Positions 12,081-27,722 of a DNA stretch of 64,000 nucleotides are shown in pieces. Made by a program: the position numbers and the translations under genes. Source of the stretch: Chitinophagales bacterium. Its GTDB lineage: Bacteria; Bacteroidota; Bacteroidia; Chitinophagales; CAIODY01. The notes under the pieces are model-generated. The model was not told the origin of the DNA, ran no database searches, and saw nothing but the letters and a program-made list of their open reading frames with translations. The stretch spans positions 1 through 64,000 of the forward strand of contig CANGEV010000008.1 in NCBI GenBank assembly GCA_947452995.1, given 5' to 3'. Within the stretch, counting starts at the first letter, position 1, and each line of letters begins with the position of its first letter.

Positions 12081-12407
12081 TTAGTCGACGAATGTTTCTT
12101 GAATGATAGCCTTTATTTTGCTAATCTCCTTTTCGCTAATAATTTCAAGTTGTTTAATAACACGCTTTTTGTCGATGGTTCGAATTTGGTCAATTACGAC
12201 CCATCCTTTTGTTTTTTTATGTTTGATTTCAACTCGTGTAGGATAGGGTTTTGAGCTGTTTGTAATGGGTGCAATCACGATTGTTTGCAAGTACTTGTTC
12301 ATTTCATTTGGAGAAATGATGAGGCAAGGTCTTGTTTTTTTTATTTCACTTCCAATGGTTGGGTCGAGGTTAACCAAGACAATTTGGTATTGACTTATAG
12401 ACTCCAT
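12081..12407 (-). CDS. MazF/PemK family toxin
   Basis: YQIVLVNLDPTIGSEIKKTRPCLIISPNEMN…IAPITN…VVIDQIRTIDKKRVIKQLEII. Confidence 0.93.
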   Translation of the reverse strand: MESISQYQIVLVNLDPTIGSEIKKTRPCLIISPNEMNKYLQTIVIAPITNSSKPYPTRVEIKHKKTKGWVVIDQIRTIDKKRVIKQLEIISEKEISKIKAIIQETFVD

Positions 12408-12643
12408 TATTCAAAGTTTTCATCCTCCCATACATCGTCTATGAGTAAGGCGTCATCACCATTTTCATGCATTTTAAAAAAAGCTTTTTCCCATCCTTTT
12501 CTCGGCTCTGCTTTCGGTTTTAGCACGATTTGTTTTTTTTCTAGAATTAACTCTAGTTTATCCTGAATACAATATTTTTCAAGAATGGTTTTGGAAAGGC
12601 GTATTCCTTTTGAATTGCCAATATTTATCACTGGTATTTCCAT
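12407..12643 (-). CDS. AbrB/MazE family antitoxin
   Basis: MEIPVINIGNSKGIRLSKTILEKYCIQDKLELILEKKQIVLKP; overlaps the toxin start. Confidence 0.92.
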   Translation of the reverse strand: MEIPVINIGNSKGIRLSKTILEKYCIQDKLELILEKKQIVLKPKAEPRKGWEKAFFKMHENGDDALLIDDVWEDENFE

Positions 12644-12885: not shown

Positions 12886-12966
12886 TGATGAATTGAATGC
12901 TGCGGATTGAATTTCGAAGCTGGAAGATATCTTGTTGAAGTGTGAAATTTTTTTTTGCAACGTTTT

Positions 12967-12996
12967 TACGCTGCACGAATTAATTCGTGCAGCGTA
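12967..12996. repeat. 30-bp perfect palindrome, copy 1
   Basis: TACGCTGCACGAATT|AATTCGTGCAGCGTA, followed by GTAGTATAACGCAAAAAA. Confidence 0.9.
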
Positions 12997-13051
12997 GTAG
13001 TATAACGCAAAAAAAATGGAATTTAGTATGTTGTTGTTAATGTGGAGGCAT

Positions 13052-13387
13052 CTAAATATCGAGCACGATTCTTAGGTTTGCCTTTAATTGCTGTTTTTGC
13101 TCCTTTGTTAATTGCCCCAATTTCTTTAACAGTCTTTTGTTGTCTATTGCTCGAACTTGATCCACCAGTATGTCACTCAATTTGTCGAGCTGCCCTTTTT
13201 TTAGATGAACACGTAAAAGTTCAATCTCTTTTTTTACGTTGGTCGTAACAGGGCAAATTAAGGTCGACTTGTGTGTTTCATTTAGAAGATCGGTCTGAAC
13301 AATCACCACAGGTCTTGTTTTTCCGGGTTCAGTTCCTTGGCTTGGGTTTAGGTCGGCAAGCCAAATGTCGTATTGCTTAATCTTCAT
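13052..13387 (-). CDS. MazF/PemK family toxin
   Basis: MKIKQYDIWLADLNPSQGTEPGKTRPVVIVQTDLLN…ICPVTTN…ILVDQVRAIDNKRLLKKLGQL. Confidence 0.93.
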   Translation of the reverse strand: MKIKQYDIWLADLNPSQGTEPGKTRPVVIVQTDLLNETHKSTLICPVTTNVKKEIELLRVHLKKGQLDKLSDILVDQVRAIDNKRLLKKLGQLTKEQKQQLKANLRIVLDI

Positions 13388-13607
13388 CCATTAATTTTTC
13401 AAATTCATGTAAGACGTCCATTGAGTCTTTGTTGGTCAATTTAGATTCCTTCATCAATTGCATTTTCAAAAGTCTGCGTTTATTGTAAAGATTGTAAATG
13501 CTAACAGCTTCGTTAATGTATCGATTTCTCGCTAGCTTAAGTTTAGACGTCAGCTCTTCCGCTTCCTCAAAAATCTCGTCATCAAGTTTAAGTGATAAGG
13601 TTTTCAT
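13377..13607 (-). CDS. Putative antitoxin partner (RHH-like)
   Basis: MKTLSLKLDDEIFEEAEELTSKLKLARNRYINEAVSIYNLYNKRRLL; overlaps the MazF start; start trimmed from 13724. Confidence 0.75.
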   Translation of the reverse strand: MKTLSLKLDDEIFEEAEELTSKLKLARNRYINEAVSIYNLYNKRRLLKMQLMKESKLTNKDSMDVLHEFEKLMDED

Positions 13608-13894
13608 TATTTTGTTTTCTTGTAAAAGTATATACTTAGAGAGTATACTGCAAATCTTTTGGCAATTATTATTCAGAGTGTAGCCGCAGATTGGTAGAAT
13701 TGTTAAGGTTTCGTGAATAGACAAGCGTATTCCTGTTTTGCGCCTGCGGCAAGCGGAGTCGTATTACTTATAAGTATAACGCAAAAAATCTCAATTTATT
13801 TTCTAGTGAAATAGAAATTTAAAATCAAACTTGTTTTAATATTTATCTATTATACTTAAAGATTTTTTCTTCCTACAACAGCTAAATACCCCAC

Positions 13895-14043
13895 AAAAAA
13901 GGCCCCGTTCAAAAACGGAGCCTTTCACAAAGTATAAGATTAAAATTTATCTTAACAAAGTCACACTGCCTGTCTTGCTGAAGTTCTTCCCATCCGTGCT
14001 ATTGCCCTTCCACACACGGCCATCCAAGAACACCGCATCTACT
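13895..14043. repeat. 149-bp imperfect direct repeat (copy 1): 3' end and terminator of the giant PKD gene
   Basis: About 93-94% identical by eye (about 9 mismatches) to 19268-19416, same orientation. Confidence 0.9.
13947..14043 (-). pseudogene. Truncated C-terminal tail of a type-B T9SS/CHU_C surface protein
   Basis: Minus strand reads …DAVFLDGRVWKGNSTDGKNFSKTGSVTLLR*, same as the end of the 2,800-aa protein; no upstream coding continuation. Confidence 0.85.
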
Positions 14044-14049
14044 CTTTTG

Positions 14050-14119
14050 CATGTAGGCGATGTTGCCTTGTATTGTCAAGAACCTTCGGGACGGCAATAT
14101 TGCTTACACGCTGTTAAAG
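14050..14119 (-). other. attC-like site #4 (truncated; terminal R' core missing)
   Basis: Minus: CTTTAAC AGCGTGTAAGCAATATTGCC…GGCAACATCGCCTACATGC; arms are complementary with a few mismatches; inverse core CTTTAAC (14113-14119) pairs with GTTAAAG at the other end of the cassette. Confidence 0.65.
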
Positions 14120-14857
14120 GCTGTTTAATTTTATTGCAAATGGGAAATTCAAGTTTTCTTCTTTATCATTTATTGTTACAATTTTTGGATTCTGATCAAA
14201 ATTTGATTTGAATTTCAAATACTGATGAGCTAAATCATTCGCACCATTTATAGATAATACGCTTTCGTTATTTTGGTTCTCATACCATTCCAGAGATGTT
14301 TTTAGCAATGAATAAGTATAATCGCCTCCTAATTCTGTATCATTACTTATTTCTCCAACCGAGCAAGTATAAGCAATAGAAATACCATCTGTACTTTCAG
14401 AAATTAGTTGCATGTGTTTTTCACTAGAATTTGGTTGGTTTAAAGCTGAATTAAAGGATAAATATTCAGGGCCTGAGAAACTTGAGTATTCTTCAACTAA
14501 GGATTTTCGGCATGTATCAATAATTATTAGTGCTTTAGGTGCTTTTATTATCGAAATTAGTTGAGAAACAGAAAGTGATTCGGAGTCGTTTATTGCAATA
14601 TTCGTTTCTTTTAAGTCTTGATGACCATGGCCGGAAAAATATACAAGTAAGAAATCAGTGTATGTACTTTGAAATAATTCGATCAAATTTTCAGATGGAC
14701 ATTTAAACAGTCCTGCGATTTCATTATCCTGCCAAGAACCACCAATAGGTGATTTTAAAAAACTTTCAAAGTGATGTAAATCTTTGTCTACGCCCTTTAA
14801 ATAATTAGCGGAATTCTTTGGTCCTGGGGAACCAATCATTATGGCTTTTCTTGTCAT
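14114..14857 (-). CDS. Stand-alone caspase-like (peptidase C14) protein
   Basis: Catalytic-dyad motifs LLVYFSGHGHQ and ALIIIDTCRKS with standard spacing. Confidence 0.85.
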   Translation of the reverse strand: MTRKAIMIGSPGPKNSANYLKGVDKDLHHFESFLKSPIGGSWQDNEIAGLFKCPSENLIELFQSTYTDFLLVYFSGHGHQDLKETNIAINDSESLSVSQLISIIKAPKALIIIDTCRKSLVEEYSSFSGPEYLSFNSALNQPNSSEKHMQLISESTDGISIAYTCSVGEISNDTELGGDYTYSLLKTSLEWYENQNNESVLSINGANDLAHQYLKFKSNFDQNPKIVTINDKEENLNFPFAIKLNSL

Positions 14858-14868
14858 ATTCTAATTGC

Positions 14869-15000
14869 CTTTAACGGTTTGCGGCTTGGCGTAGTGGAGG
14901 AATTAAAAGCACCAACTTTCAGCCTTGCACAAATGTAAATAAAAAGGACTAACGTTCATTTAAGCACGTCAGCCCCCATTACGCCAAACCGCTGTTAGGC
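14869..15000 (-). other. attC-like site #1 (132 bp)
   Basis: Minus: GCCTAAC(R'')-AGCGGTTTGGCGTAATGG…CCACTACGCCAAGCCGCAAACC-GTTAAAG(R'); arms 13/15 complementary with a bulge. Confidence 0.75.
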
Positions 15001-15030
15001 GTAGGCAATTCTATTCAGTCGCCCCCTTGA

Positions 15031-15537
15031 TTAAAAAAGTTCTTTCAATTTAAACTTTGGTAAACCAAAAGGTAAAGCAACAATTGCAATAAACCATAAG
15101 ATTGGTCCGCCATAAGTACCCCAGTCACCCTTAATATGTCCTGGTGTTACCTGTAGAAACAAAAATGACAAATCGGCTAATCCTATAATGAAAAATCCTA
15201 TAAAATATGCTAGCCAAGGTTTGCTGTTTTTCCATAACATTACACCTAATAAAATACCTAGCATTCCATAACCAGCAACGTCTAAACAAAAATTCAAAAT
15301 AAAGTTTGCAGTTACTTTAAGTGTCATCGGGTCTGTGGCAAATTGGAATTTGTCAGCTGGCATTTTGTCTCCACCAAGTAATGCACTCCACAAACCTTTG
15401 TTTGGGTCAGTTATGTATTGACTAATACCTATGTAACCAACATAAATATGTAGAATACCCCAAATAACATATGCTATTGAACCAATTTTAATTGCATTGT
15501 TAAGTCTTTTTTGATTTTCAATTTTGCTATTGTCCAT
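15031..15537 (-). CDS. Hypothetical multi-TM membrane protein
   Basis: Four hydrophobic segments; complete ORF. Confidence 0.75.
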   Translation of the reverse strand: MDNSKIENQKRLNNAIKIGSIAYVIWGILHIYVGYIGISQYITDPNKGLWSALLGGDKMPADKFQFATDPMTLKVTANFILNFCLDVAGYGMLGILLGVMLWKNSKPWLAYFIGFFIIGLADLSFLFLQVTPGHIKGDWGTYGGPILWFIAIVALPFGLPKFKLKELF

Positions 15538-15610
15538 TTTTATTAAATTTTAATTAATGGTGCAAAATTACAACTGTAAAACTGAATACTTTTTTACCTA
15601 AGTTAAAAAA

Positions 15611-16174
15611 TCATTTCTTGGCTCTTATTCTGCTTAAAGTAACTTGTGAAATTCCTAAATAACTTGCGGTGTCTCCCAAACTTATCCTCTGCAATAAATG
15701 ATGGTTTTCATTTATAAACTCTTTATAAAGTTCTGATGCATCTGCGTCAAACATTTCTTTAATTCGCTTCAAATTCACAACGGCTGCCATTGTAAATAGT
15801 TTTCTCGAAAAGGTTTCAAATGTGTGATGTCTTCTACACAATTCGTCAAAATCAGCATAATCAATAGTGCTAGTTTCAGTGTCCTCTAAAGCAATTGTAA
15901 TGAATTGAGATGGTGTTTGATTAGCAAAACTGTCAAGAACCGTAAAGAAATTAGTCTCTGAAAAAAACCGTAGAATAAAAACTCTGTCTTTATGATGATA
16001 ATAATGCTTTACCAAACCTTTGTCAATAAAGAATAGATTTTTACAAATTTGTCCTTCTTTGTTTATTACTTGTCCTTTTCTAAAAGACTTTGATTTAAGT
16101 CTGGGCAAAAGGTCTTCTTCGGCTTCTTTTGAAAGCTGAGAAACTTTGTTCACATATTTTGTAAAATCTGACAT
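15611..16174 (-). CDS. Crp/Fnr family transcriptional regulator
   Basis: Cyclic-nucleotide-binding domain followed by LLQRISLGDTASYLGISQVTLSRIRAKK HTH. Confidence 0.9.
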   Translation of the reverse strand: MSDFTKYVNKVSQLSKEAEEDLLPRLKSKSFRKGQVINKEGQICKNLFFIDKGLVKHYYHHKDRVFILRFFSETNFFTVLDSFANQTPSQFITIALEDTETSTIDYADFDELCRRHHTFETFSRKLFTMAAVVNLKRIKEMFDADASELYKEFINENHHLLQRISLGDTASYLGISQVTLSRIRAKK

Positions 16175-16214
16175 CTCTTATTTGTCGTATGTTCTTAGTG
16201 TGTCGTTTGCTTAC

Positions 16215-16346
16215 GCCTAACGGTTTGCAGCTACAAGAAGTTGGCGATTTCGGAGACGAAAACTATCTGCCACCACTGAACTTGATACGAAGCACAAAGC
16301 TTCATTTAACCACTGAACCGCCAATTTCTTGTAGGTGCTGTTAGCG
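16215..16346 (-). other. attC-like site #2 (132 bp)
   Basis: Minus: CGCTAAC(R'')-AGCACC-TACAAGAAATTGGCG…CGCCAACTTCTTGTA-GCTGCAAACC-GTTAGGC(R'); arms 14/15 complementary. Confidence 0.8.
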
Positions 16347-16354
16347 GTTCGGTT

Positions 16355-17199: not shown

Positions 17200-17285
17200 C
17201 GCTAACTCGCTTATATGCGCTATAAGCCTTCGCTTATATAGCAGAATATGCAAATAAGGCGAAGGAATATTGCGCATATTAAAAA
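17200..17285 (-). other. attI/attC-like imperfect inverted repeat downstream of the recombinase fragment
   Basis: Minus: ATATGCGCAATATTCCTTCGCCTTAT…ATAAGCGAAGGCTTATAGCGCATAT…GTTAGCG; bulged palindrome ending in a GTTAGCG core. Confidence 0.6.
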
Positions 17286-17313
17286 TACTCAAAATTTATA
17301 AATCATCAAAGGG
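17229..17313. repeat. 85-bp direct repeat copy 1 (recombinase 3' end plus downstream site)
   Basis: 83/85 identical to 18045-18129 by eye. Confidence 0.92.
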
Positions 17314-17489
17314 AGATCGGATTTTTTGTAAGCTTTGCGTGCTCACATGTGTGTAAATCTCTGTCGTTCGTGATTTGGAATGTCCTAAAAGCTCCTGTAT
17401 ACACCTTAAATCAGTTCCACTTTCTAATAAATGCGTTGCATAACTGTGCCGCAACCAATGTAAACTTACAGGCTTATTGATTTTTGCCT
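17296..17489 (-). pseudogene. C-terminal fragment of a tyrosine recombinase (XerCD/IntI-like)
   Basis: [57 protein letters not shown]: HxLRH, LLGHxxxxTTxIYTH; begins right after the attC-like core at 17490-17496 (ORF track: 17296..17553). Confidence 0.88.
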
Positions 17490-17576
17490 TCGTAACGGTT
17501 TGCAAGCAGGCGAAGTTGCCTTGTGTTATCCCGCATGTGCGAGAGCAAGGCAATATTGCTTACACGCTGCTAGCAG
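17490..17576 (-). other. attC-like site #3 (about 87 bp)
   Basis: Minus: CTGCTAGC-AGCGTGTAAGCAATATTGCCTTG…CAAGGCAACTTCGCCTGCTTGCAAACC-GTTACGA; same arm family as site #4. Confidence 0.7.
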
Positions 17577-17585
17577 TATGTACAT

Positions 17586-18011
17586 TTAGGCATCTATGTT
17601 AAATTTTTCTATGTTAAATTCCAAGGTGTAATCTTCATTAAGATTCTCAGCATTTAGCAACTCTAATTTCAATGTTCGATAAAACTTTCTTTCCGGATTT
17701 ATACCCAAAGTGAATGTTTCGTTTTTTATTAATTTGTTCAATTGAAAAACCGGTTGAACTTGGTAAGGGTCAACCAGTAAATGTATAGGGAACTGATTTT
17801 TTCTTTCATCAATAAAGCATCCATTTTGGTTTTCAAAAACAATATATTTCAGCTCAGCGGTTAGTTTAACCTGTGATATGAAATTAGTCCATTCATTTTT
17901 AAAATCCTTTGACGATGTTACAGCTACACTATGGATCAGTAAATAGCTATCTGCAGAATTCAATTTGAATTCTATTTCAGGATTTTCTTTATGTAGTTTA
18001 ATTTGTTCCAA
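17586..18011 (-). CDS. Hypothetical protein (cassette ORF)
   Basis: 141-aa complete ORF lying between two recombination-like sites. Confidence 0.7.
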   Translation of the reverse strand: MEQIKLHKENPEIEFKLNSADSYLLIHSVAVTSSKDFKNEWTNFISQVKLTAELKYIVFENQNGCFIDERKNQFPIHLLVDPYQVQPVFQLNKLIKNETFTLGINPERKFYRTLKLELLNAENLNEDYTLEFNIEKFNIDA

Positions 18012-18044: not shown

Positions 18045-18129
18045 TTCGCTTATATAGCAGAATATGCAAATAAGGCGACGGAATAGTGCGCATATTAAAA
18101 ATACTCAAAATTTATAAATCATCAAAGGG
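18045..18129. repeat. 85-bp direct repeat copy 2
   Basis: 83/85 identical to 17229-17313. Confidence 0.92.
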
Positions 18130-18141
18130 GGAGCGAATAAT
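18112..18141 (-). pseudogene. Terminal nub of a second tyrosine recombinase gene (IIRSPFDDL*)
   Basis: Minus strand ATTATTCGCTCCCCCTTTGATGATTTATAA; differs from copy 1 at synonymous positions (RS). Confidence 0.65.
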
Positions 18142-18228
18142 GTAACAATGTATTTAGCAAGGTTGTTGCTGAGGAACGTTCCCTAAAATGGTAGATAGTA
18201 AGTTGCGAAATTTGAATTTCTCCAAACT

Positions 18229-18258
18229 TACGCTGCACGAATTAATTCGTGCAGCGTA
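18229..18258. repeat. 30-bp perfect palindrome, copy 2
   Basis: TACGCTGCACGAATTAATTCGTGCAGCGTA then GTAGTATAACGTAAAAAAA, as at 12967. Confidence 0.9.
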
Positions 18259-18361
18259 GTAGTATAACGTAAAAAAATCGAATTTAGTATCCTTGCACTT
18301 CGCAATAAGATAGGTAGATGTAAAGCTTAGCAAGCTGTCTGCAGCTCAGAACATATCTATT

Positions 18362-18994: not shown

Positions 18995-19267
18995 TTTTAG
19001 ATTTTATTTTATTTTGTTTTGTTGTTGAACTGAAAGCTAATATCCTGTATGCAAATTTTAGTATGCAATTAAATAATGAATAGTAGGAACTTAGTCGCTT
19101 ACATTAAAAGTACCTAAAATTCTTTCGTTTCAAGCAACAAACTGATTTTAGTTGGGGTCTGTTCTGTCATCTAGGATACTTTCTTTGTTTTAAGTATAAT
19201 GTTTCTAGAAATCGTTCAGTTTTAATTAAATCTTATATGTTGAATAATAAAATTAGTTTTATGACAT

Positions 19268-19416
19268 AAAAAAGGCCCCGTTCAAAAACGGAGCCTTTCA
19301 CAAAGTATAAGATTAAAATTTATCGTAACAAGGTCACACTGCCTGTCTTGCTGAAGTTCTTACCATCCGTGCTATTACCTTTCCATACACGACCATCCAA
19401 GAACACAGCATCCACT
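19268..19416. repeat. 149-bp imperfect direct repeat (copy 2): 3' end and terminator of the giant gene
   Basis: Matches 13895-14043; includes hairpin ggccccgttcaaaaacggagcc. Confidence 0.9.
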
Positions 19417-22400
19417 TTCCATACATACACGTCTTGCGGCAATAACTCACCCTTGAACGTGCCATCCCAAGCCTCTGTAGGTGTGCCATGTTCATCTAAT
19501 GCAGTCGATTCAAATACTTTCTCTCCCCATGTAGAGAAGATCTGTAAATGGTAGGTTTTGATACCAATCCCTTTCGGACGGAAGATGCGTACTTCTTGGT
19601 TGCCGCCTGCATTCGGTGACAACGCATTCGGAACATACAAGCTACTTAGATAATTCGTCTCTACTACTTGATAAATTGTATCTGTACAGCCATTATCACG
19701 AATCGCTACCAACATCACACGGTACGGACCATAGCTTGGGAAACTATGACTTGTATTCGCCTCTGTCGTTACAACAGGCGCACTGCCATCGCCGAAGTTC
19801 CAAACATAACTGCTCGCATTCGTCGAATTATTCAAGAAATTGAAATCTACTTCCGGAGCCGGCGTATTCAAGGCATCTGCAGTGAAATCAGCCTTTGGCT
19901 TCGGTAATACCTGTATGTAGGCCTGCTTCGTTACACTATCTACACATACCTTATTAATCCCTTCAATGATCAAAGTAACACTGTATAATCCTGCCTTCTT
20001 GTAAGTATGCGCAGGACTCGGATCATTATACAAACTACTTCCATCCCCAAAGAACCAATGTGCATAAACACTGTTTCTTGAAGTGTCCTGGAACTGTACA
20101 TAATCGTTTTCACAAATAGGATTCGGGATGCCTACAAAGCCTGCTTTTGGCGTTGGATACAATACATATTTATGCGTTGCAATCGATGTACAGCCATAGG
20201 TATTCGAAGCGGTCAAACTGATATTGTAAGTGTTTGGAACCGTATACGTAAAACTCGGACTCGTATTAGTATTAGTATTGCCCGAACCATCGTTCCACAA
20301 AAATCCATTTGCACCCGTAGAAGTGTTCATGGCAAGGACTGTCGCCGGCGCAGTACAAGAGAAGGTGTCATTCAACAAGAACGCTGCCTGTGGCTTAGGA
20401 TATACATACACAGAGGTATAGGCCGTATCCTTACAACCACTTGGATTACCCGCAATGAAGGTCACATTGAAGGTTCCTCCTGTTTGGTAAACGTGATTAG
20501 GCGCGAAATTAGAAGATGAATTTCCATCGCCGAAGTCCCAGTTATTAAATGAAGAGAACGGTGTATTATTCACAAAGCTTACATTCAATGGCGCACAACC
20601 GATTAGCGGCGTAGCGCTGATATTTGCTATTGGAGAAGCAAGAATTGTAATGGTCTTTTTTGTTGAATCCGTACAACCATAAGCAATAGAGGTACCTACT
20701 AATGTTGCTGTGTAAGTTGTACCATTACTTGCATAAACGTGGTGAACAGGGTTGGTACTTCCATAACTACCGTCACCAAAGTTCCAGTAATAACTACTTA
20801 AGCCTGGATTCACAAACGAGAACGTGATGTCTTGTCCCACACAAACACTCGTTTGCGATGCAATAATACTTAACGAAGGACTAGGATTAACTGTGACAGG
20901 AACTGTTAATGGAGCTCCACTACAACCGTTTGCTACAGGGGTTATTGTATAATTCACTGAACCAGGGAATGTAGTAGTCGTGTTTAAAACCTGATTGATA
21001 ATCGATCCTGAGCCATTAGCAGCACCAACCGTATTGCTTTGAACAACCGTCCAGCTATATGATGTGTTTGGTAAATTAGAACTTAAGGTGATATAATCTG
21101 AATTACCCTTACAGATCGTTTGTGAACTAGGCGAAGCACTTACCACAGGAAGCGGACGAACGAATAGTGTTGCGTATTTAGGTGCACCAGGACAACCGTT
21201 TGCAGTAGGTGTGATTAAATAAGTCGCGCTATCTAATCCCAAACTTAATGCAGTGAGGGTTTGCGCAATGCTAGAGCCTGAACCTGAATTCGCGCCTCCG
21301 CAAGTCGCATTCGTTACAATCCAGCTATACGTCGTACCTGCAACACTACTAGATAAGGCAATATTGGTAGCGCTACCAGAACAGATGGTCTGAGTGCTAG
21401 GAGTCACGGTTAAAGCAGGAATAGGATATACAGTGATAGGAACGTTTAACGGAGCTCCGTTACAGCCATTCGCGGTTGGAGTCACAGTATAGGTTGTAAT
21501 TCCTGTTGCTGTTCCCGTTGTCGTAAGTGTTTGAATAATATTCAATCCATTACCATTGCTACCGCCACTAACTCCGTTATTGGCTGCAGTCCAAGCAAAA
21601 GTAGTTCCGCTTACATTTGAATTTAATGCAATATTAGTCGTTCCTCCAGAACAGAAAGATTGATTTGGCGGAGTCGCACTTACTACCGGAACAGGGTTCA
21701 CATTCACTGTAACTTGAATCGAACTGCCGGCACATAATCCTACACTTGGTACGATAGTATAAGTTACATAACCAGGTTGCGTTCCCGTTGTATTCAGTGT
21801 TTGCGCAATTAATGAGCCAGTACCATTGGCAGCGCCTGCTACCAAACTAGGCGTAACAGTCCAGTTGAAAGCTGTTCCAACTACATTCGAACTTAATGAA
21901 ATATTTGTTGCCGAACCACTACACAATGTTTGTGCGGTTGGTGTCGCGGTTACTGTTGGATAAGGGTTAACTATCACTGTAACAGTAATAGGTAAACCAC
22001 TACAACCATTCGCGGTTGGTGTAATGGTATATGTTATGTTTCCAGGTGCAAGTCCCGTTGTAGTCAATGTTTGTGCAATAACAGCACCTGTTCCTGCACT
22101 CGCACCACTGACACCAGTTTGTGAAACCGTCCATGCAAAGCTTGTTCCAACCACCGTACTCGTTAACGCAATATTCGTACTCGCACCAGTACATAAGGTC
22201 TGTGTATTCGGCGTAGCCGTAACTACTGGAACCGGATTGATAGTAATATTCACAGGAATACTACTTCCCAAACAACCATTTAAATTTGGAGTGACTGTAT
22301 AAGCAGCCGTTCCTTGCGTAGGTGTATTCGTTACTAAATTTTGAGCAATCGTAGAACCAACACCTGCCGTAGCACCGCTGATATTATTTTGAATTACTGA

Positions 22401-25400
22401 CCAAGAGAATGTAGTTCCTGGTAATGAGGAGCTTAAACTAATAGCCGTCGAACTTCCTGAACAAAGGGTTTGAGTATTCGGTGTAGCAGTTGCACTCGGA
22501 GTTGGTGTGACAGTCACTGTATCCTTAATAGCTGCTCCCTGACAACCATACACACTCGGTGAAGGAGTAATAGTGTAAATTACAGTGCCACTACTTGCAC
22601 CTTGTACACTCAAGACCTGATTGATAAAGGTTCCACCACCTGCAGAGGCTCCACTCACTCCTGTTGCTGTAGCAGTCCAATTAAATGTTGTACCCGCCAC
22701 TAAACTGCTTAAACTGATATTGGCCATATTGCCAGAACAAATGGTTTGTGGCGACGGCGTCGCAATAACATTTGGAACAGGATACACAGTCACAATACTA
22801 GAGGTTGTATCAAAACTACAGCCATTATTAGCACTCAAATGAATGGTATAAGTACCTGGTGCCGTATAGGTAACGGTGTCTACGTTTTGTGTAGAATAGG
22901 TCCCGTTTCCGAAGTTCCAAGAGAAGGTCGTATGTCCCGTAGAGTAGTTGCTTACTATTGTTGTAAACGGCGCACATCCTGCCGTAGCAGTGATATTCAT
23001 AAAGGCATTCACCGTATTCGGATGCACTAATATCGTTTGATAAGTTGTATCCACACCACATGCATTCGTCGCAATTAACATGATGGTAAACGTTGTATCA
23101 TTGGCACCTGTATAGAACGTATGCGGGCCCGGATTCTTTGCAGTATCCGTTGCAGATCCATCCCCAAAGTTCCATAAATAAGCCGTTGGTAAACCTTGTG
23201 AGGTGTTCGAGAAGTAAATCGGTAAAGGACTGCAACCAACGCTCACATTCGTACCGAAGCTCGCGTGCGGCCCAGGGTGCACAATCACAGAATCTTGCAC
23301 CGTAACCGTTCCACAAACATTGCTCACTTGCAAATCAATAATGAAAGTCGTATCAAAGCGATATGGAGTAGGGTAGGTAGTAGGCGGAGGTGTCACACCA
23401 TTGTAAAACGCACCACCCAAGCCTAAATTCCATTGATAGCTAGGATTGTAGCCGGAACTATAATTCGTGAAATTCACCACTACTGGTCCACAAGAGACAT
23501 GCGGACTTAACGCAAAGCTATCATGCGGAACGGTAACAATCGTAATAGGATGAGTAATAGAATCAATACAGCCATAAACGGTCGTCGCAGTAAGGGTTAC
23601 ATTAAACGTACCTGTATTTGCATAAGCGTGATTCGGACTGTTGATACCAGAAATACCTCCGTCTCCGAAACGCCAGTTTCTTGAAATAATTAATCCCGTT
23701 GAATTGTTCGTGAACAATACGCCAATAGTCGCACAGGCTGGATTCGGATAAGTGAAGGCCATCACTGGCAATGGCTTAACTGTTATTACTACGTTGTTCG
23801 AATCCTGACAGCCATGAATATCCGTCTCAGATATAGTATAAGTAGTGGTAACACTCGGGGTAACCGTATCATTCGGAGCAGTATTGCTATATCCACCCGG
23901 AACACTCACCCAACTATAAGTACTACCTGGCACTTGTGCCCCACCAATTGGTGCAGATTGACCAGCACAAATAGTGGCATTAACACCTGATAAGGCTGCC
24001 GGTGCAGGGAACATAGATACATGAACCGTATCTGCAAAAGAAGTACATCCTGCAAAAGTTTGCGTGCAATAGTAATCACCGCTATCCTGATAAAGTGCTA
24101 ATGGATTCACTGGATTCTGTAAGCTAGAAACAAATCCGTTAGGTCCAGTCCAATTATACGTTGCACCAACTAATCCACTGGCAAATAAATTTATATTCGA
24201 ATACCAACATACCGGACTATTACTCGTTGCTACCGGAGCTGGAGGTAATGGAACGGAGGTAATAACTACGGTATCGTATTTATAACATCCAGTAATACTA
24301 TCCGTCTTCGTTAAATAATAAGTCGTGGTGACACTAGGATTCGCTATTGGATTTGATTTGCTTGTATCATTCAATCCTAGTGACGGCGTCCAGGAATAAC
24401 TATATCCCCAAACATGTGGAGCCCCAAGGGTGGTGCTCGCACCTAAACATAAATTTCTATCTGCTCCTGCAACAGCAACTGGTAAAGGTTTCACCGTAAC
24501 CCAAGTACTGTCCGTTACATTACAGCCAACCCCATTCATCGCCGTTACATAATACATCGTAGATACGCTTGGCGTAGCGACTACCACCGGACCAACGGTC
24601 GTGTTCAATCCAGCGCTCGGCGTCCAAACATAATTCGCTCCTCCAGTCACCCACATCGTATCTAAGCTTTGTCCTTTACAGATTGTTGAATCAAAATGTG
24701 TAATCGTTAAAGGTTGAATCGGAAGAACCGTCACAACAACCATCCCTGTGTCTTGACAATTTAATCCACTTGAACCCGTAACAATATAGGTTGTTGTCAC
24801 GGTTGGTGTTGCGGTTACTGTCGCACCAGTGGTAGGATTTACACTACTCGTAGGTGTCCATGAATAGGTATTAGCTCCAAATGCCTGCAAGGTAACGGGT
24901 GAGCCAGGGCACGAGGTTCCTGTCGGACCAGTTGCGTAGACATTAGGCAATGCGTTGACCGTTACAACTTTAGTAATTGAATCTATACACCCATAATTAT
25001 TTGTTCCTACCAACGTGTAGGTTGTTGTAACTGTCGGTGTTGCTGTAACAGTACTGCCTGTAGTTGTATTCAAACCTGTTCCAGGATGCCAACTATAAGT
25101 TGTCGCTCCATTTGAAAATAATGTAATACTTTGTCCTAAACAAATAGTACTATTCGAAGGACTAATACTTAAGTTAGGTAAAGGTCGAACAGTAACGTAA
25201 ACGTTATCGTTGTCAAAACAACCTGCTGCTGTTGTTCCTGTAACAGAATATGTATTCGATGAAGTAGGTATTGCAATGACGGTATCTCCTGTGCTTGACT
25301 GCAGTCCTTGTCCACTCCAAGTAAACGTGGTTCCTGGTACTGTCGAAGTTGCAATCAAGGTGATAGGCTGCCCATAGCAAACAGGATTAGGTGATACACT

Positions 25401-27722
25401 CATATTTACAACGGGAGTCGGATTCACTGTAACAATCATACTATCTGATGAACTACAGCCATGCCAGTCACTTACATTCAGATAATAGGTTGTGGTGGCA
25501 GCGGGATATACATATGGACAACACGAACCTGATCCTGAAGGCGACCAACTATAATAATAACTCGGAGTTCCATTCGAAGCAGAACCTTGTAAATAAGCTG
25601 CATTACCACTACAAATAGTCAAGCTGGGACCAGCACTCACAATTGGAATAGGCCACACAGGAACATATACCGTAGCTGTTTTAGAGCCACACTCATTCGT
25701 TGCAACAACTGTCATTGCATTACTACCAGCATTCGTAAAAGTTACGTTACCTGGACTTGCACCAGTGCCTGTTGAAGGAGTTCCGTTGTTAAAGGTCCAT
25801 GCATAATTGGAAATCGTACCACCACATCCATTAAACCCAAAATAGGATGCTGGATTAACTGTATTAGAGCCACATGCCCCTGAAACAGAGCTTGTAGTAA
25901 TATAGGGTAAATCTTTAACGACAGTACTTTGAGAAGCGGAAACGGTTCCACAGGCATTGGTAACATTCAAAGTGATATTATAATTACCCGGTGTGGAGAA
26001 AGTGAATACAGGATTCTGTGCAGAGTTCGAACCAGAAGAATAAGTATAAGAACCCGAAGAATAATAGATACAACCACTACTATAACTTACAACCCATGAA
26101 TAGCCTAAAGAACTACAACCTGCCGAACCTAAAGAAGTATTAGAAACAGTTACGGTAGACGGAGCACAACCATTTGGCGGTGTCATATTGAACGCTGGTT
26201 GCGCTGGAGGTACCACACAAATAGTTTGTGTGATGGTGTCCAACCCACACAAGTGCGTCGAACCAGTTATCAAAGTAATGGTATAGGTTCCTATCGTATT
26301 AAAATTCACACCTAATGAATTTGAACCACCGCTCCATAAATTCGGATCAGTTAAACCAAATGTGTTTCCAAAATTAGAACCACTTGTCCAGCCAGTACTC
26401 GGACTAATACTCCACATTACTGGATCGTTGTTCGTACATACACCACTAGCTGCATTGTATCCAACAGAAGTATTGGTAAAAGTAGCACTGCTGTTTACAC
26501 AAATAGTTGAAGCACTCATGTAGAAAGATGCATTAGGCGGCGTCGAAACATAAATCGGCGTAACACTCGCAGCCGTACTTCCACAAGGGTTACTCACTGT
26601 AATGGTTGCTGTAAATGAATTTGGAAACGGACTTGCAAATGCTGTCAAACCACCATTACCAGCTGAACAGGATGTTATGTTAAACGTGTGCGATACACTC
26701 GCTGGTGGAGGATGACTAAATGTTACCGGTGCAGTACCATCTCCAAAAGTTACTGAATAGGTCGTACCCGGAGGATTAGATGAAGTATTTGTTATTGGAA
26801 AGGTAAGCGTACCGCCACCACATATATCCGTATTACCTGGACTTCCCAACGCAACCGCTGGGTTAGATCCAACAAAAATATTGTAATGGGCCGTATCCAC
26901 ACATCCATTACCACCACTCACGATATAAGTCATCGTGTAAACACCTATGGCATACGTATGAGTCATTGTTGGCCCCCATGTAGCACCTGTAAACGTTGCA
27001 CTTGCATCTCCCCAATCCACAAAATAATTTGTGTTGGTTGCTGCCGTCGACGAAGTATTTGTAAACGTGAATAGGGCTGTAGGGTTAGAACTACAAACCT
27101 TAAAATAAGGAACACCATTGATCGTCGTTGCTCCTGATCCACCCATTGTGGTACTCGGTAGTTGCTTAACTGTTACCGTTTGTGTTGCTGTAGCCGTACA
27201 ACCATTCGATGCTGTCACTGTAAGCGTTACCGTAAAATTCTGCGTTCCGTTACCTGCTGTCGGAGTATAACTATGCTTTGGATTTTGCTGATTTGAAGTT
27301 CCGCCATCCCCAAAATTCCAACTATAACTCAATCCTGTTCCTGTACCACTTCCAGTAAATTGAATCGGTGTCTTCGCACATTGCGTGGAAGAAGGACTAT
27401 AGGTGAAACTAGCTGTAGGAGGCGTTTTTATCGTTACAACAACAGTCGCAGAATCCACTCCGCCGCTCTGACAAAGACGAACCACTTTATAGGTTGTCGT
27501 AACAGTAGGTGTTGCAGTAACATTCGCTCCGTTAGTCGTGTTTAATCCGGTGGCCGGACTCCATGTCCAAGTACCACCGCCACCGCTAGCAGTTAAATTG
27601 ACACTCTGGCCCAGACAAACACTGGCAGGATTCGGTGAAATATTTACGTTACATGGTTGTGCTTGCAAGCCAACATGTATAAAACCTAAAATGATGAAAA
27701 TTAGGGTCAGTTTTCTCAACAT
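19320..27722 (-). CDS. Giant (2,800 aa) secreted PKD-domain surface protein with gliding-motility-associated (type-B T9SS) C-terminal domain
   Basis: Signal peptide; many PKD-type motifs (YSWNFGDGGTSNQQNPKHSY); C-term VPNALSPNAGGNQEVRIFRPKGIGIKTYHLQIFSTWGEKVFES…VWKGNSTDGKNFSKTGSVTLLR. Confidence 0.93.
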   Translation of the reverse strand: MLRKLTLIFIILGFIHVGLQAQPCNVNISPNPASVCLGQSVNLTASGGGGTWTWSPATGLNTTNGANVTATPTVTTTYKVVRLCQSGGVDSATVVVTIKTPPTASFTYSPSSTQCAKTPIQFTGSGTGTGLSYSWNFGDGGTSNQQNPKHSYTPTAGNGTQNFTVTLTVTASNGCTATATQTVTVKQLPSTTMGGSGATTINGVPYFKVCSSNPTALFTFTNTSSTAATNTNYFVDWGDASATFTGATWGPTMTHTYAIGVYTMTYIVSGGNGCVDTAHYNIFVGSNPAVALGSPGNTDICGGGTLTFPITNTSSNPPGTTYSVTFGDGTAPVTFSHPPPASVSHTFNITSCSAGNGGLTAFASPFPNSFTATITVSNPCGSTAASVTPIYVSTPPNASFYMSASTICVNSSATFTNTSVGYNAASGVCTNNDPVMWSISPSTGWTSGSNFGNTFGLTDPNLWSGGSNSLGVNFNTIGTYTITLITGSTHLCGLDTITQTICVVPPAQPAFNMTPPNGCAPSTVTVSNTSLGSAGCSSLGYSWVVSYSSGCIYYSSGSYTYSSGSNSAQNPVFTFSTPGNYNITLNVTNACGTVSASQSTVVKDLPYITTSSVSGACGSNTVNPASYFGFNGCGGTISNYAWTFNNGTPSTGTGASPGNVTFTNAGSNAMTVVATNECGSKTATVYVPVWPIPIVSAGPSLTICSGNAAYLQGSASNGTPSYYYSWSPSGSGSCCPYVYPAATTTYYLNVSDWHGCSSSDSMIVTVNPTPVVNMSVSPNPVCYGQPITLIATSTVPGTTFTWSGQGLQSSTGDTVIAIPTSSNTYSVTGTTAAGCFDNDNVYVTVRPLPNLSISPSNSTICLGQSITLFSNGATTYSWHPGTGLNTTTGSTVTATPTVTTTYTLVGTNNYGCIDSITKVVTVNALPNVYATGPTGTSCPGSPVTLQAFGANTYSWTPTSSVNPTTGATVTATPTVTTTYIVTGSSGLNCQDTGMVVVTVLPIQPLTITHFDSTICKGQSLDTMWVTGGANYVWTPSAGLNTTVGPVVVATPSVSTMYYVTAMNGVGCNVTDSTWVTVKPLPVAVAGADRNLCLGASTTLGAPHVWGYSYSWTPSLGLNDTSKSNPIANPSVTTTYYLTKTDSITGCYKYDTVVITSVPLPPAPVATSNSPVCWYSNINLFASGLVGATYNWTGPNGFVSSLQNPVNPLALYQDSGDYYCTQTFAGCTSFADTVHVSMFPAPAALSGVNATICAGQSAPIGGAQVPGSTYSWVSVPGGYSNTAPNDTVTPSVTTTYTISETDIHGCQDSNNVVITVKPLPVMAFTYPNPACATIGVLFTNNSTGLIISRNWRFGDGGISGINSPNHAYANTGTFNVTLTATTVYGCIDSITHPITIVTVPHDSFALSPHVSCGPVVVNFTNYSSGYNPSYQWNLGLGGAFYNGVTPPPTTYPTPYRFDTTFIIDLQVSNVCGTVTVQDSVIVHPGPHASFGTNVSVGCSPLPIYFSNTSQGLPTAYLWNFGDGSATDTAKNPGPHTFYTGANDTTFTIMLIATNACGVDTTYQTILVHPNTVNAFMNITATAGCAPFTTIVSNYSTGHTTFSWNFGNGTYSTQNVDTVTYTAPGTYTIHLSANNGCSFDTTSSIVTVYPVPNVIATPSPQTICSGNMANISLSSLVAGTTFNWTATATGVSGASAGGGTFINQVLSVQGASSGTVIYTITPSPSVYGCQGAAIKDTVTVTPTPSATATPNTQTLCSGSSTAISLSSSLPGTTFSWSVIQNNISGATAGVGSTIAQNLVTNTPTQGTAAYTVTPNLNGCLGSSIPVNITINPVPVVTATPNTQTLCTGASTNIALTSTVVGTSFAWTVSQTGVSGASAGTGAVIAQTLTTTGLAPGNITYTITPTANGCSGLPITVTVIVNPYPTVTATPTAQTLCSGSATNISLSSNVVGTAFNWTVTPSLVAGAANGTGSLIAQTLNTTGTQPGYVTYTIVPSVGLCAGSSIQVTVNVNPVPVVSATPPNQSFCSGGTTNIALNSNVSGTTFAWTAANNGVSGGSNGNGLNIIQTLTTTGTATGITTYTVTPTANGCNGAPLNVPITVYPIPALTVTPSTQTICSGSATNIALSSSVAGTTYSWIVTNATCGGANSGSGSSIAQTLTALSLGLDSATYLITPTANGCPGAPKYATLFVRPLPVVSASPSSQTICKGNSDYITLSSNLPNTSYSWTVVQSNTVGAANGSGSIINQVLNTTTTFPGSVNYTITPVANGCSGAPLTVPVTVNPSPSLSIIASQTSVCVGQDITFSFVNPGLSSYYWNFGDGSYGSTNPVHHVYASNGTTYTATLVGTSIAYGCTDSTKKTITILASPIANISATPLIGCAPLNVSFVNNTPFSSFNNWDFGDGNSSSNFAPNHVYQTGGTFNVTFIAGNPSGCKDTAYTSVYVYPKPQAAFLLNDTFSCTAPATVLAMNTSTGANGFLWNDGSGNTNTNTSPSFTYTVPNTYNISLTASNTYGCTSIATHKYVLYPTPKAGFVGIPNPICENDYVQFQDTSRNSVYAHWFFGDGSSLYNDPSPAHTYKKAGLYSVTLIIEGINKVCVDSVTKQAYIQVLPKPKADFTADALNTPAPEVDFNFLNNSTNASSYVWNFGDGSAPVVTTEANTSHSFPSYGPYRVMLVAIRDNGCTDTIYQVVETNYLSSLYVPNALSPNAGGNQEVRIFRPKGIGIKTYHLQIFSTWGEKVFESTALDEHGTPTEAWDGTFKGELLPQDVYVWKVDAVFLDGRVWKGNSTDGKNFSKTGSVTLLR
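20893..22788 (-). repeat. Seven tandem degenerate repeats of about 90 aa within the giant gene
   Basis: Consensus NPxPxVxATPxxQTLCSGxxTNIxLSSxVxGTxFxWTVxxxxVxGAxxGxGxxIxQTLxTTGxxxGxxTYTITPTANGCxGxPIxVxVxV. Confidence 0.85.

Follow-up and report, generated by a model that had tools for sequence, protein, structure and literature searches.

A caspase-like protease gene carried as a single-gene attC cassette in environmental Bacteroidota

Results

A caspase gene is the last cassette of an array in a freshwater Bacteroidota genome

The window, the 64,000-nucleotide stretch of DNA analysed here, comes from a freshwater Bacteroidota bacterium and carries an array of gene cassettes on its minus strand. 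The last of these cassettes, far from the array head, holds a gene for a caspase-like protease. The features of the array are, in minus-strand order:

17586..18011, minus strand: gene of a 141-aa orphan cassette (neighbour comparison)
17486..17576, minus strand: attC belonging to the 141-aa cassette and joined to what is left of the recombinase (covariance model)
17502..17299, minus strand: remnant of the array recombinase, a C-terminal piece with 81% identity to residues 280-347 of the recombinase at locus L085
16355..17155, minus strand: HARE-HTH protein, 266 aa, the first cassette after the attI-like site (ORF list and Pfam)
16211..16347, minus strand: attC separating the HARE-HTH from the Crp-like cassette (covariance model and hairpin)
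15031..16174, minus strand: cassette preceding the caspase cassette, with a Crp-like and a hydrophobic gene (ORF list and Pfam)
16174..15611, minus strand: cNMP-binding (Crp-like) regulator, in the preceding cassette
15537..15031, minus strand: 168-aa hydrophobic protein, in the preceding cassette
15001..14865, minus strand: attC of the preceding cassette (64.5 bits), whose R' is the 5' end of the caspase cassette
14930..14937, minus strand: candidate Bacteroidota -7 promoter box TACATTTG (sequence match), inside the preceding attC and 73-80 nt before the caspase ATG
14875..14046, minus strand: whole caspase cassette, which starts at the crossover point G/TTAAAGGC and runs to where attC conservation stops (similarity borders in comparison with up to 16 further loci)
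14857..14114, minus strand: caspase-like protease CDS, 247 aa (ORF list, Pfam and structure model)
14120..14033, minus strand: attC of the caspase cassette itself (55.6 bits, E 4e-11), whose R'' core overlaps the stop codon

Several repeats surround these genes. A 94-nt repeat (95%; 17229-17322 and 18045-18138) comprises the recombinase 3' end and the attI-like site, and each copy is followed by a cassette, which suggests a duplicated integron head. The 3' end and terminator of a gene for a 2800-aa PKD-type protein (27722..19320) are also duplicated (93%; 13892-14043 and 19265-19416); as the second gene end lies on the far side of the cassettes, the array sits between two copies of it. A 50-nt repeat (98%; 12966-13015 and 18228-18277) includes the perfect 26-nt palindrome CGCTGCACGAATTAATTCGTGCAGCG; the rest of the genome has a single further copy of it (C13:7953).

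The encoded protein is a predicted active protease of the caspase fold

A Pfam scan of the 247-aa protein returned a single domain, Peptidase_C14 (residues 3-227, E 4.7e-13), with 49.8 bits against a curated cut-off of 21.4 bits, which places the protein in peptidase family C14. As the match extends over residues 3-227, it covers both the p20 and the p10 region. The dyad consists of His77 (FSGHG, residues 74-78) and Cys116 (IIDTC, residues 112-116), and an AlphaFold model, built on an alignment of 18 rows with Leptospira rows excluded, showed a p20+p10 caspase fold (pLDDT 85.6, pTM 0.88). From the letters alone, the initial annotation had described a stand-alone caspase-like protease with intact dyad motifs and no fused sensor, and had recommended structure prediction and a domain search. 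Both motifs are present in the open reading frame, the two analyses returned the caspase fold and Peptidase_C14, and the stand-alone architecture is borne out by Peptidase_C14 as the sole Pfam domain, with no sensor domain fused to it, in a single-gene cassette.

The best solved structures in a Foldseek search with the model were MALT1, plant metacaspases, caspase-9, GSU0716 and yeast Yca1 (probability 1.00, identity 10-16%). A phmmer search of the PDB with the single sequence gave chance matches only, and an alignment profile reached the metacaspases as best solved-structure matches. This profile search placed Asp26 opposite the Asp in GCINDA, a metacaspase motif, and Asp114 opposite the one in DSC; these positions presumably shape the acidic S1 pocket of metacaspases and MALT1. 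His77, Cys116, Asp26 and Asp114 are invariant among 18-20 homologs with identities down to 25%. As both Asp residues occupy acidic S1 positions, Arg or Lys, not Asp, is predicted at P1, and we consider this basic preference probable. That the cassette caspase is an active protease is predicted with considerable confidence. It thus resembles metacaspases, orthocaspases and paracaspases (Yca1, AtMCA4/9, MALT1, MaOC1) in fold, dyad and acidic S1 positions, but it is shorter, is only 10-16% identical and lies on an attC cassette, with activity and specificity that are here predicted.

The caspase gene is exchanged as an attC cassette

The borders of the caspase gene coincide with attC features on both sides. 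Directly before its ATG, GTTAAAGGCAATTAGAAT is the R' end of the preceding attC (15001..14865), and its stop codon TAA is part of CTTTAAC, which is the R'' core of its own attC. This overlap, pointed out in the initial annotation, recurs in nearly all other copies of the cassette. At the junction with the duplicated gene end, the R' half of the cassette's own attC is degenerate. The attC sites were detected with a covariance model (R1), as an earlier sequence-only finder was too strict and recovered one of the four sites in the window. Because the window sites were partly used to build the model, their bit scores alone are not independent evidence; their bottom strands fold into long hairpins.

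Evidence independent of these motifs came from comparison between genomes, as DNA similarity runs from ~14875 to ~14046 only and the flanks outside are unrelated. We have next to no doubt that the caspase gene is a genuine attC gene cassette: it is a single promoterless gene with an attC, exchanged as a unit cut at G/TTRRRY. The mobile single-gene cassette that had been predicted from the window is therefore confirmed, cut at the expected attC points and recurring in unrelated contexts.

The cassette recurs in unrelated contexts and is under purifying selection

The caspase gene was found at 16 loci in 14 other Bacteroidota genomes, with a protein identity of 89-94%. Across these genomes, the cassette DNA is ~91-94% identical and sits in ten or more unrelated contexts; L009 and L019 have one flank in common and still differ in their neighbours. 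The contexts include arrays with other cassettes (L017, L018 and L022). The survey of close homologs proposed in the initial annotation came out in its favour, with recurrent placement in cassette arrays rather than housekeeping operons. The cassette has no constant neighbour from one context to the next. The most recurrent ones are a 111-aa orphan (four loci, two contexts) and the 141-aa orphan (three loci), which in L017 and L022 is the next or next-but-one cassette after the caspase. Distribution is patchy: two further genomes of the genus and three of the family were examined, and none has the gene. The genome itself holds a paralog on contig 28 (27% identity, no attC model match), and no relatives were found in a phage collection and viral contigs. 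In L011 (4775-6749), two different caspase cassettes with 27% identity stand in tandem; the second also retains its dyad (GHG/DAC) and matches the attC model weakly.

A metacaspase-like protease that is useful in stress and has no part in conflict would be in keeping with the metacaspases as best profile matches among solved structures, some of which have such roles, and with the solitary copy at L013, which has settled between ordinary chromosomal genes and lost its attC. However, the patchy, mobile distribution and the immune or mobile-element neighbourhoods of the relatives argue against such a role, which we regard as very unlikely.

Among 12 full-length cassette copies (66 pairs), mean dN was 0.047 and mean dS 0.194 (dN/dS 0.24), and variable sites fell mostly on third codon positions (50/41/89 for the first, second and third). 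Both the low ratio and the third-position excess indicate that the gene is kept as a protein: the caspase cassette is under purifying selection. The dyad is retained in every full-length copy.

How the gene is expressed bears on whether it has any current role. The motif TAnnTTTG, the Bacteroidota -7 box, occurs in five of 13 upstream regions, against 1.15 expected (one unreplicated test with mononucleotide shuffles), and a full -33/-7 promoter match lies upstream in L011. Judged from these matches, expression of the caspase from within the array is plausible. The alternative is a rarely expressed passenger without a current role in this genome. The caspase is indeed the last cassette and lies a long way from the array head. 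Poor expression is common for cassettes remote from the array promoter (PMC12409362), and a complete integrase is missing from the genome. Nonetheless, the dN/dS of 0.24, the dyad in every full-length copy and the candidate -7 box inside the preceding attC make a silent passenger highly improbable.

Distant relatives are coupled to membranes and immune modules

Distant relatives of the cassette caspase (25-37% identity) were found outside integrons, and no attC was detected with covariance model R1 at the distant-homolog loci scanned. Many of them are membrane-tethered, either by a C-terminal helix or through an adjacent 1-TM, 4-TM or SLATT gene. Nine have a C-terminal TM helix; several of these lie near SSB and RadC genes, in mobile-element surroundings closely related to one another. 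In L031, L033 and L062, a related multi-TM gene stands beside the caspase. The initial annotation had also proposed to look for defence genes near homologs, and three distant homologs adjoin CBASS or retron genes; in one of them (L063), the caspase gene is convergent with a CBASS cyclase and E2. As the relatives are repeatedly coupled to membranes and immune modules, the cassette clade appears, in this small sample, to be the minimal form of the family.

At the other two loci with CBASS or retron genes, a caspase gene follows a CBASS cyclase and a SLATT gene (L064, 5115-7776) and, in L065 (4321-6046), one overlaps a retron-type RT gene whose best match is the type VI model. A 1-TM gene lies directly 5' of the caspase both in L061 (4807-6037, Bacteroidota) and on Leptospira plasmids (L036/L037, 6544-10075), with 34% identity. 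On the plasmids, the pair is followed by a ResIII/DEAD helicase gene (ResIII-type), and the 1-TM gene, caspase and ResIII/DEAD helicase form a candidate multi-gene caspase system. Three tandem caspase-like genes stand beside the multi-TM gene of L062 (5602-8123, minus strand); in one of them Gln replaces the dyad His, and this copy is probably inactive.

The pairing of relatives raises the question of whether the cassette spreads only the effector half of a system. The protease would then stay inactive unless activated by a host-encoded or separately acquired partner, such as a membrane sensor, a second messenger, or a retron or TIR product. Consistent with this, relatives are repeatedly paired with TM genes, SLATT, a CBASS cyclase or a retron-type RT, and the EACC1-caspase system has its membrane sensor gene 5' of the caspase (PMC7159879). 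On the other hand, no neighbour is constant across the cassette contexts, and the genome of the window lacks the multi-TM partner gene of L033. Together, we consider an orphan effector unlikely.

Toxin-antitoxin genes lie downstream of the caspase cassette

About 0.5 kb downstream of the caspase cassette lies a toxin-antitoxin pair:

13607..13377, minus strand: putative antitoxin with an NKRR stretch, 76 aa when counted from the ATG at 13607 (no family match)
13052..13387, minus strand: PemK/MazF-like toxin (Pfam PF02452, E 6.8e-29), just downstream of the caspase cassette

A second PemK/MazF-like toxin gene (12407..12081) and its putative antitoxin (12643..12407) are found near the first pair. 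Other caspase cassette loci also hold toxin-antitoxin pairs, namely DUF6364 with PIN in L011 and L021 and HipA in L014.

The PemK toxin genes just downstream make it a live rival explanation that the caspase cleaves antitoxins of nearby modules and thereby frees their toxins. Its precedent is the orthocaspase MaOC1, which is encoded upstream of a toxin-antitoxin module, as the cassette caspase is, and cleaves the antitoxin, most likely at basic stretches (PMC7935541). The putative NKRR antitoxin ~0.5 kb downstream, the second pair beyond it and the pairs in L011, L021 and L014 fit such a mechanism. However, most cassette contexts have no toxin-antitoxin neighbour, the types differ where one is present, and toxin-antitoxin genes are common near integrons, so we judge a toxin-antitoxin trigger to be quite unlikely.

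The cassette caspase differs from known caspase systems

Searches of NCBIfam and PADLOC gave only weak matches to the caspase, the best NCBIfam one being NF047832 (EACC1-associated caspases; E 8e-7, 28.8 bits against a cut-off of 140). In EACC1-caspase, a predicted immune system, the gene 5' of the caspase encodes a membrane sensor (Kaur et al. 2020, PMC7159879). The system is predicted to act at the membrane, as many relatives of the cassette caspase appear to do, whereas the cassette caspase is a soluble protein of 247 aa without an EACC1 gene or a variable C-terminal domain. Membership in this system was rejected on the score of 28.8 against 140 bits, with no EACC1 single-TM gene 5' of the caspase; the gene upstream is a different 168-aa hydrophobic protein that is not kept in other contexts. 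The Canu caspase-nuclease defence also uses an anti-phage caspase-fold protease structurally related to MALT1, but the caspase cassette has no nuclease, Ig-like or CanB-like component (PMC12799240). A Canu system, which needs a downstream gated nuclease gene, was rejected, as the cassette has a single gene and the Pfam scan detected no nuclease domain among the array genes scanned.

CBASS and retron genes stand directly beside distant relatives (the CBASS cyclase/SLATT pair and the retron-type RT), whereas the caspase cassette itself differs from CBASS, retron and Thoeris systems in having no cyclase, RT or TIR gene. CBASS was rejected for the window array, which has no CD-NTase gene; such genes were present only beside the distant relatives L063 and L064. 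For Thoeris, Rousset and colleagues reportedly described in 2025 a system with a caspase effector, in which a TIR partner gene accompanies a signal-binding caspase. The Pfam scan found no TIR domain among those array genes of the window that it covered.

Vibrio and mobile integrons are established carriers of anti-phage cassettes (PMC12409362). The caspase cassette is likewise a compact single-gene module moved by attC recombination, but its hosts are Bacteroidota and its array recombinase is not a canonical IntI. No caspase integron cassette was found in the literature searched, a set with most subscription papers outside it.

A mobile immune or suicide effector is the favoured but tentative explanation

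Overall, the best explanation of the locus, to which we give slightly less than an even chance, is a mobile one-gene cassette encoding a soluble caspase-fold immune or suicide effector. Taken separately, a putative role in defence or cell death is evenly balanced, and the chances are equal that the caspase acts without a dedicated cassette partner. A soluble p20+p10 cysteine protease would be held inactive until phage infection or another stress. Cys116 and His77 would then cleave after Arg or Lys (inferred), the activated caspase would cut cellular or phage proteins, and the cleavage would stop growth or kill the cell, which would limit spread. The cassette would represent a reduced branch of a family of immune effectors, the rest of which are membrane-tethered or coupled to CBASS, retron or helicase modules.

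An immune effector agrees with the C14 domain and fold, the invariant dyad and both Asp residues, the exact recurrence of the cassette in unrelated contexts, its patchy presence and the purifying selection. The membrane, CBASS and retron neighbourhoods of distant relatives, and the anti-phage cassettes of other integrons, point the same way. Against it stand the lack of an inhibitor or sensor in the cassette, the lack of a fixed neighbour, and toxin-antitoxin neighbours that fit another mechanism; moreover, the apparent link of the family to defence is drawn from few loci, those of distant relatives (25-37% identity). As the cassette form keeps the protease only and its relatives carry membrane or immune modules, a stripped-down immune or suicide protease is the best supported but unproven reading, and the initial annotation, which had suggested a minimal defence or cell-suicide module, is partly supported.

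The locus shows a complete caspase-fold protease pared down to a single small gene, which travels between unrelated hosts on a recombination cassette. With this gene and two point mutants, it offers a direct test of whether a bacterial caspase can act alone. Environmental Bacteroidota would also join Vibrio and mobile integrons as settings for anti-phage cassettes.

The arrays are headed by recombinases without the IntI-specific domain

A complete integron was rejected for this genome, which has only the recombinase remnant in the window and no complete integron integrase. No integrase exceeded the TIGR02249 cut-off in this genome, in the 14 host genomes or in 12 array-bearing genomes. The canonical definition of an integron, with an integrase carrying the IntI-specific additional domain in the genome, hence does not apply to the window array. 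Relatives of the remnant head arrays at L085 (1095-2138), L127, L128, L130, L131, L134-L136, L138, L140, L141 and L144. At 25 recombinase loci, all 26 attC matches (E<1e-5) were downstream on the same strand and none upstream; they are spread over 12 loci, and one of the 26 (in L085) was part of the training set of the covariance model.

In 21 of 22 recombinases examined, box I Arg and box II His are 89-90 residues apart, compared with ~132 in IntI4 (alignment count), which indicates that they lack the IntI-specific insertion. The literature regards this domain as exclusive to integron integrases and as a requirement for recombination (PMC9668308). In its place, the array recombinases carry at their N-terminus a module in which a WS...W...D pattern is conserved; the module matched DUF5710 in five of 13 members (best E 1.7e-5) and HARP in two (best E 0.01). 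As its top fold match is the SMARCAL1 HARP domain, weakly (probability 0.72, E 0.16), the module is possibly HARP-like. We hypothesize that it replaces the missing IntI domain in reading folded attC.

We give an even chance to a broader model, in which the caspase cassettes would belong to a widespread Bacteroidota integron class whose integrase is a Xer-like tyrosine recombinase that lacks the IntI domain and has an N-terminal HARP-like module that might read folded attC; integrons of this class would spread a one-gene caspase immune effector. If true, standard integron searches that require the IntI domain would call these arrays integrase-less, and the unusual recombinase, if confirmed, would change how integrons are defined and searched for. 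This side finding is perhaps more novel than the caspase cassette. Relatives of the recombinase (E<1e-60) were found in 99 of 299 genomes of the order, with open frames mostly of ~350-440 aa and some longer, and many of their contigs break just downstream, as expected of repeat arrays.
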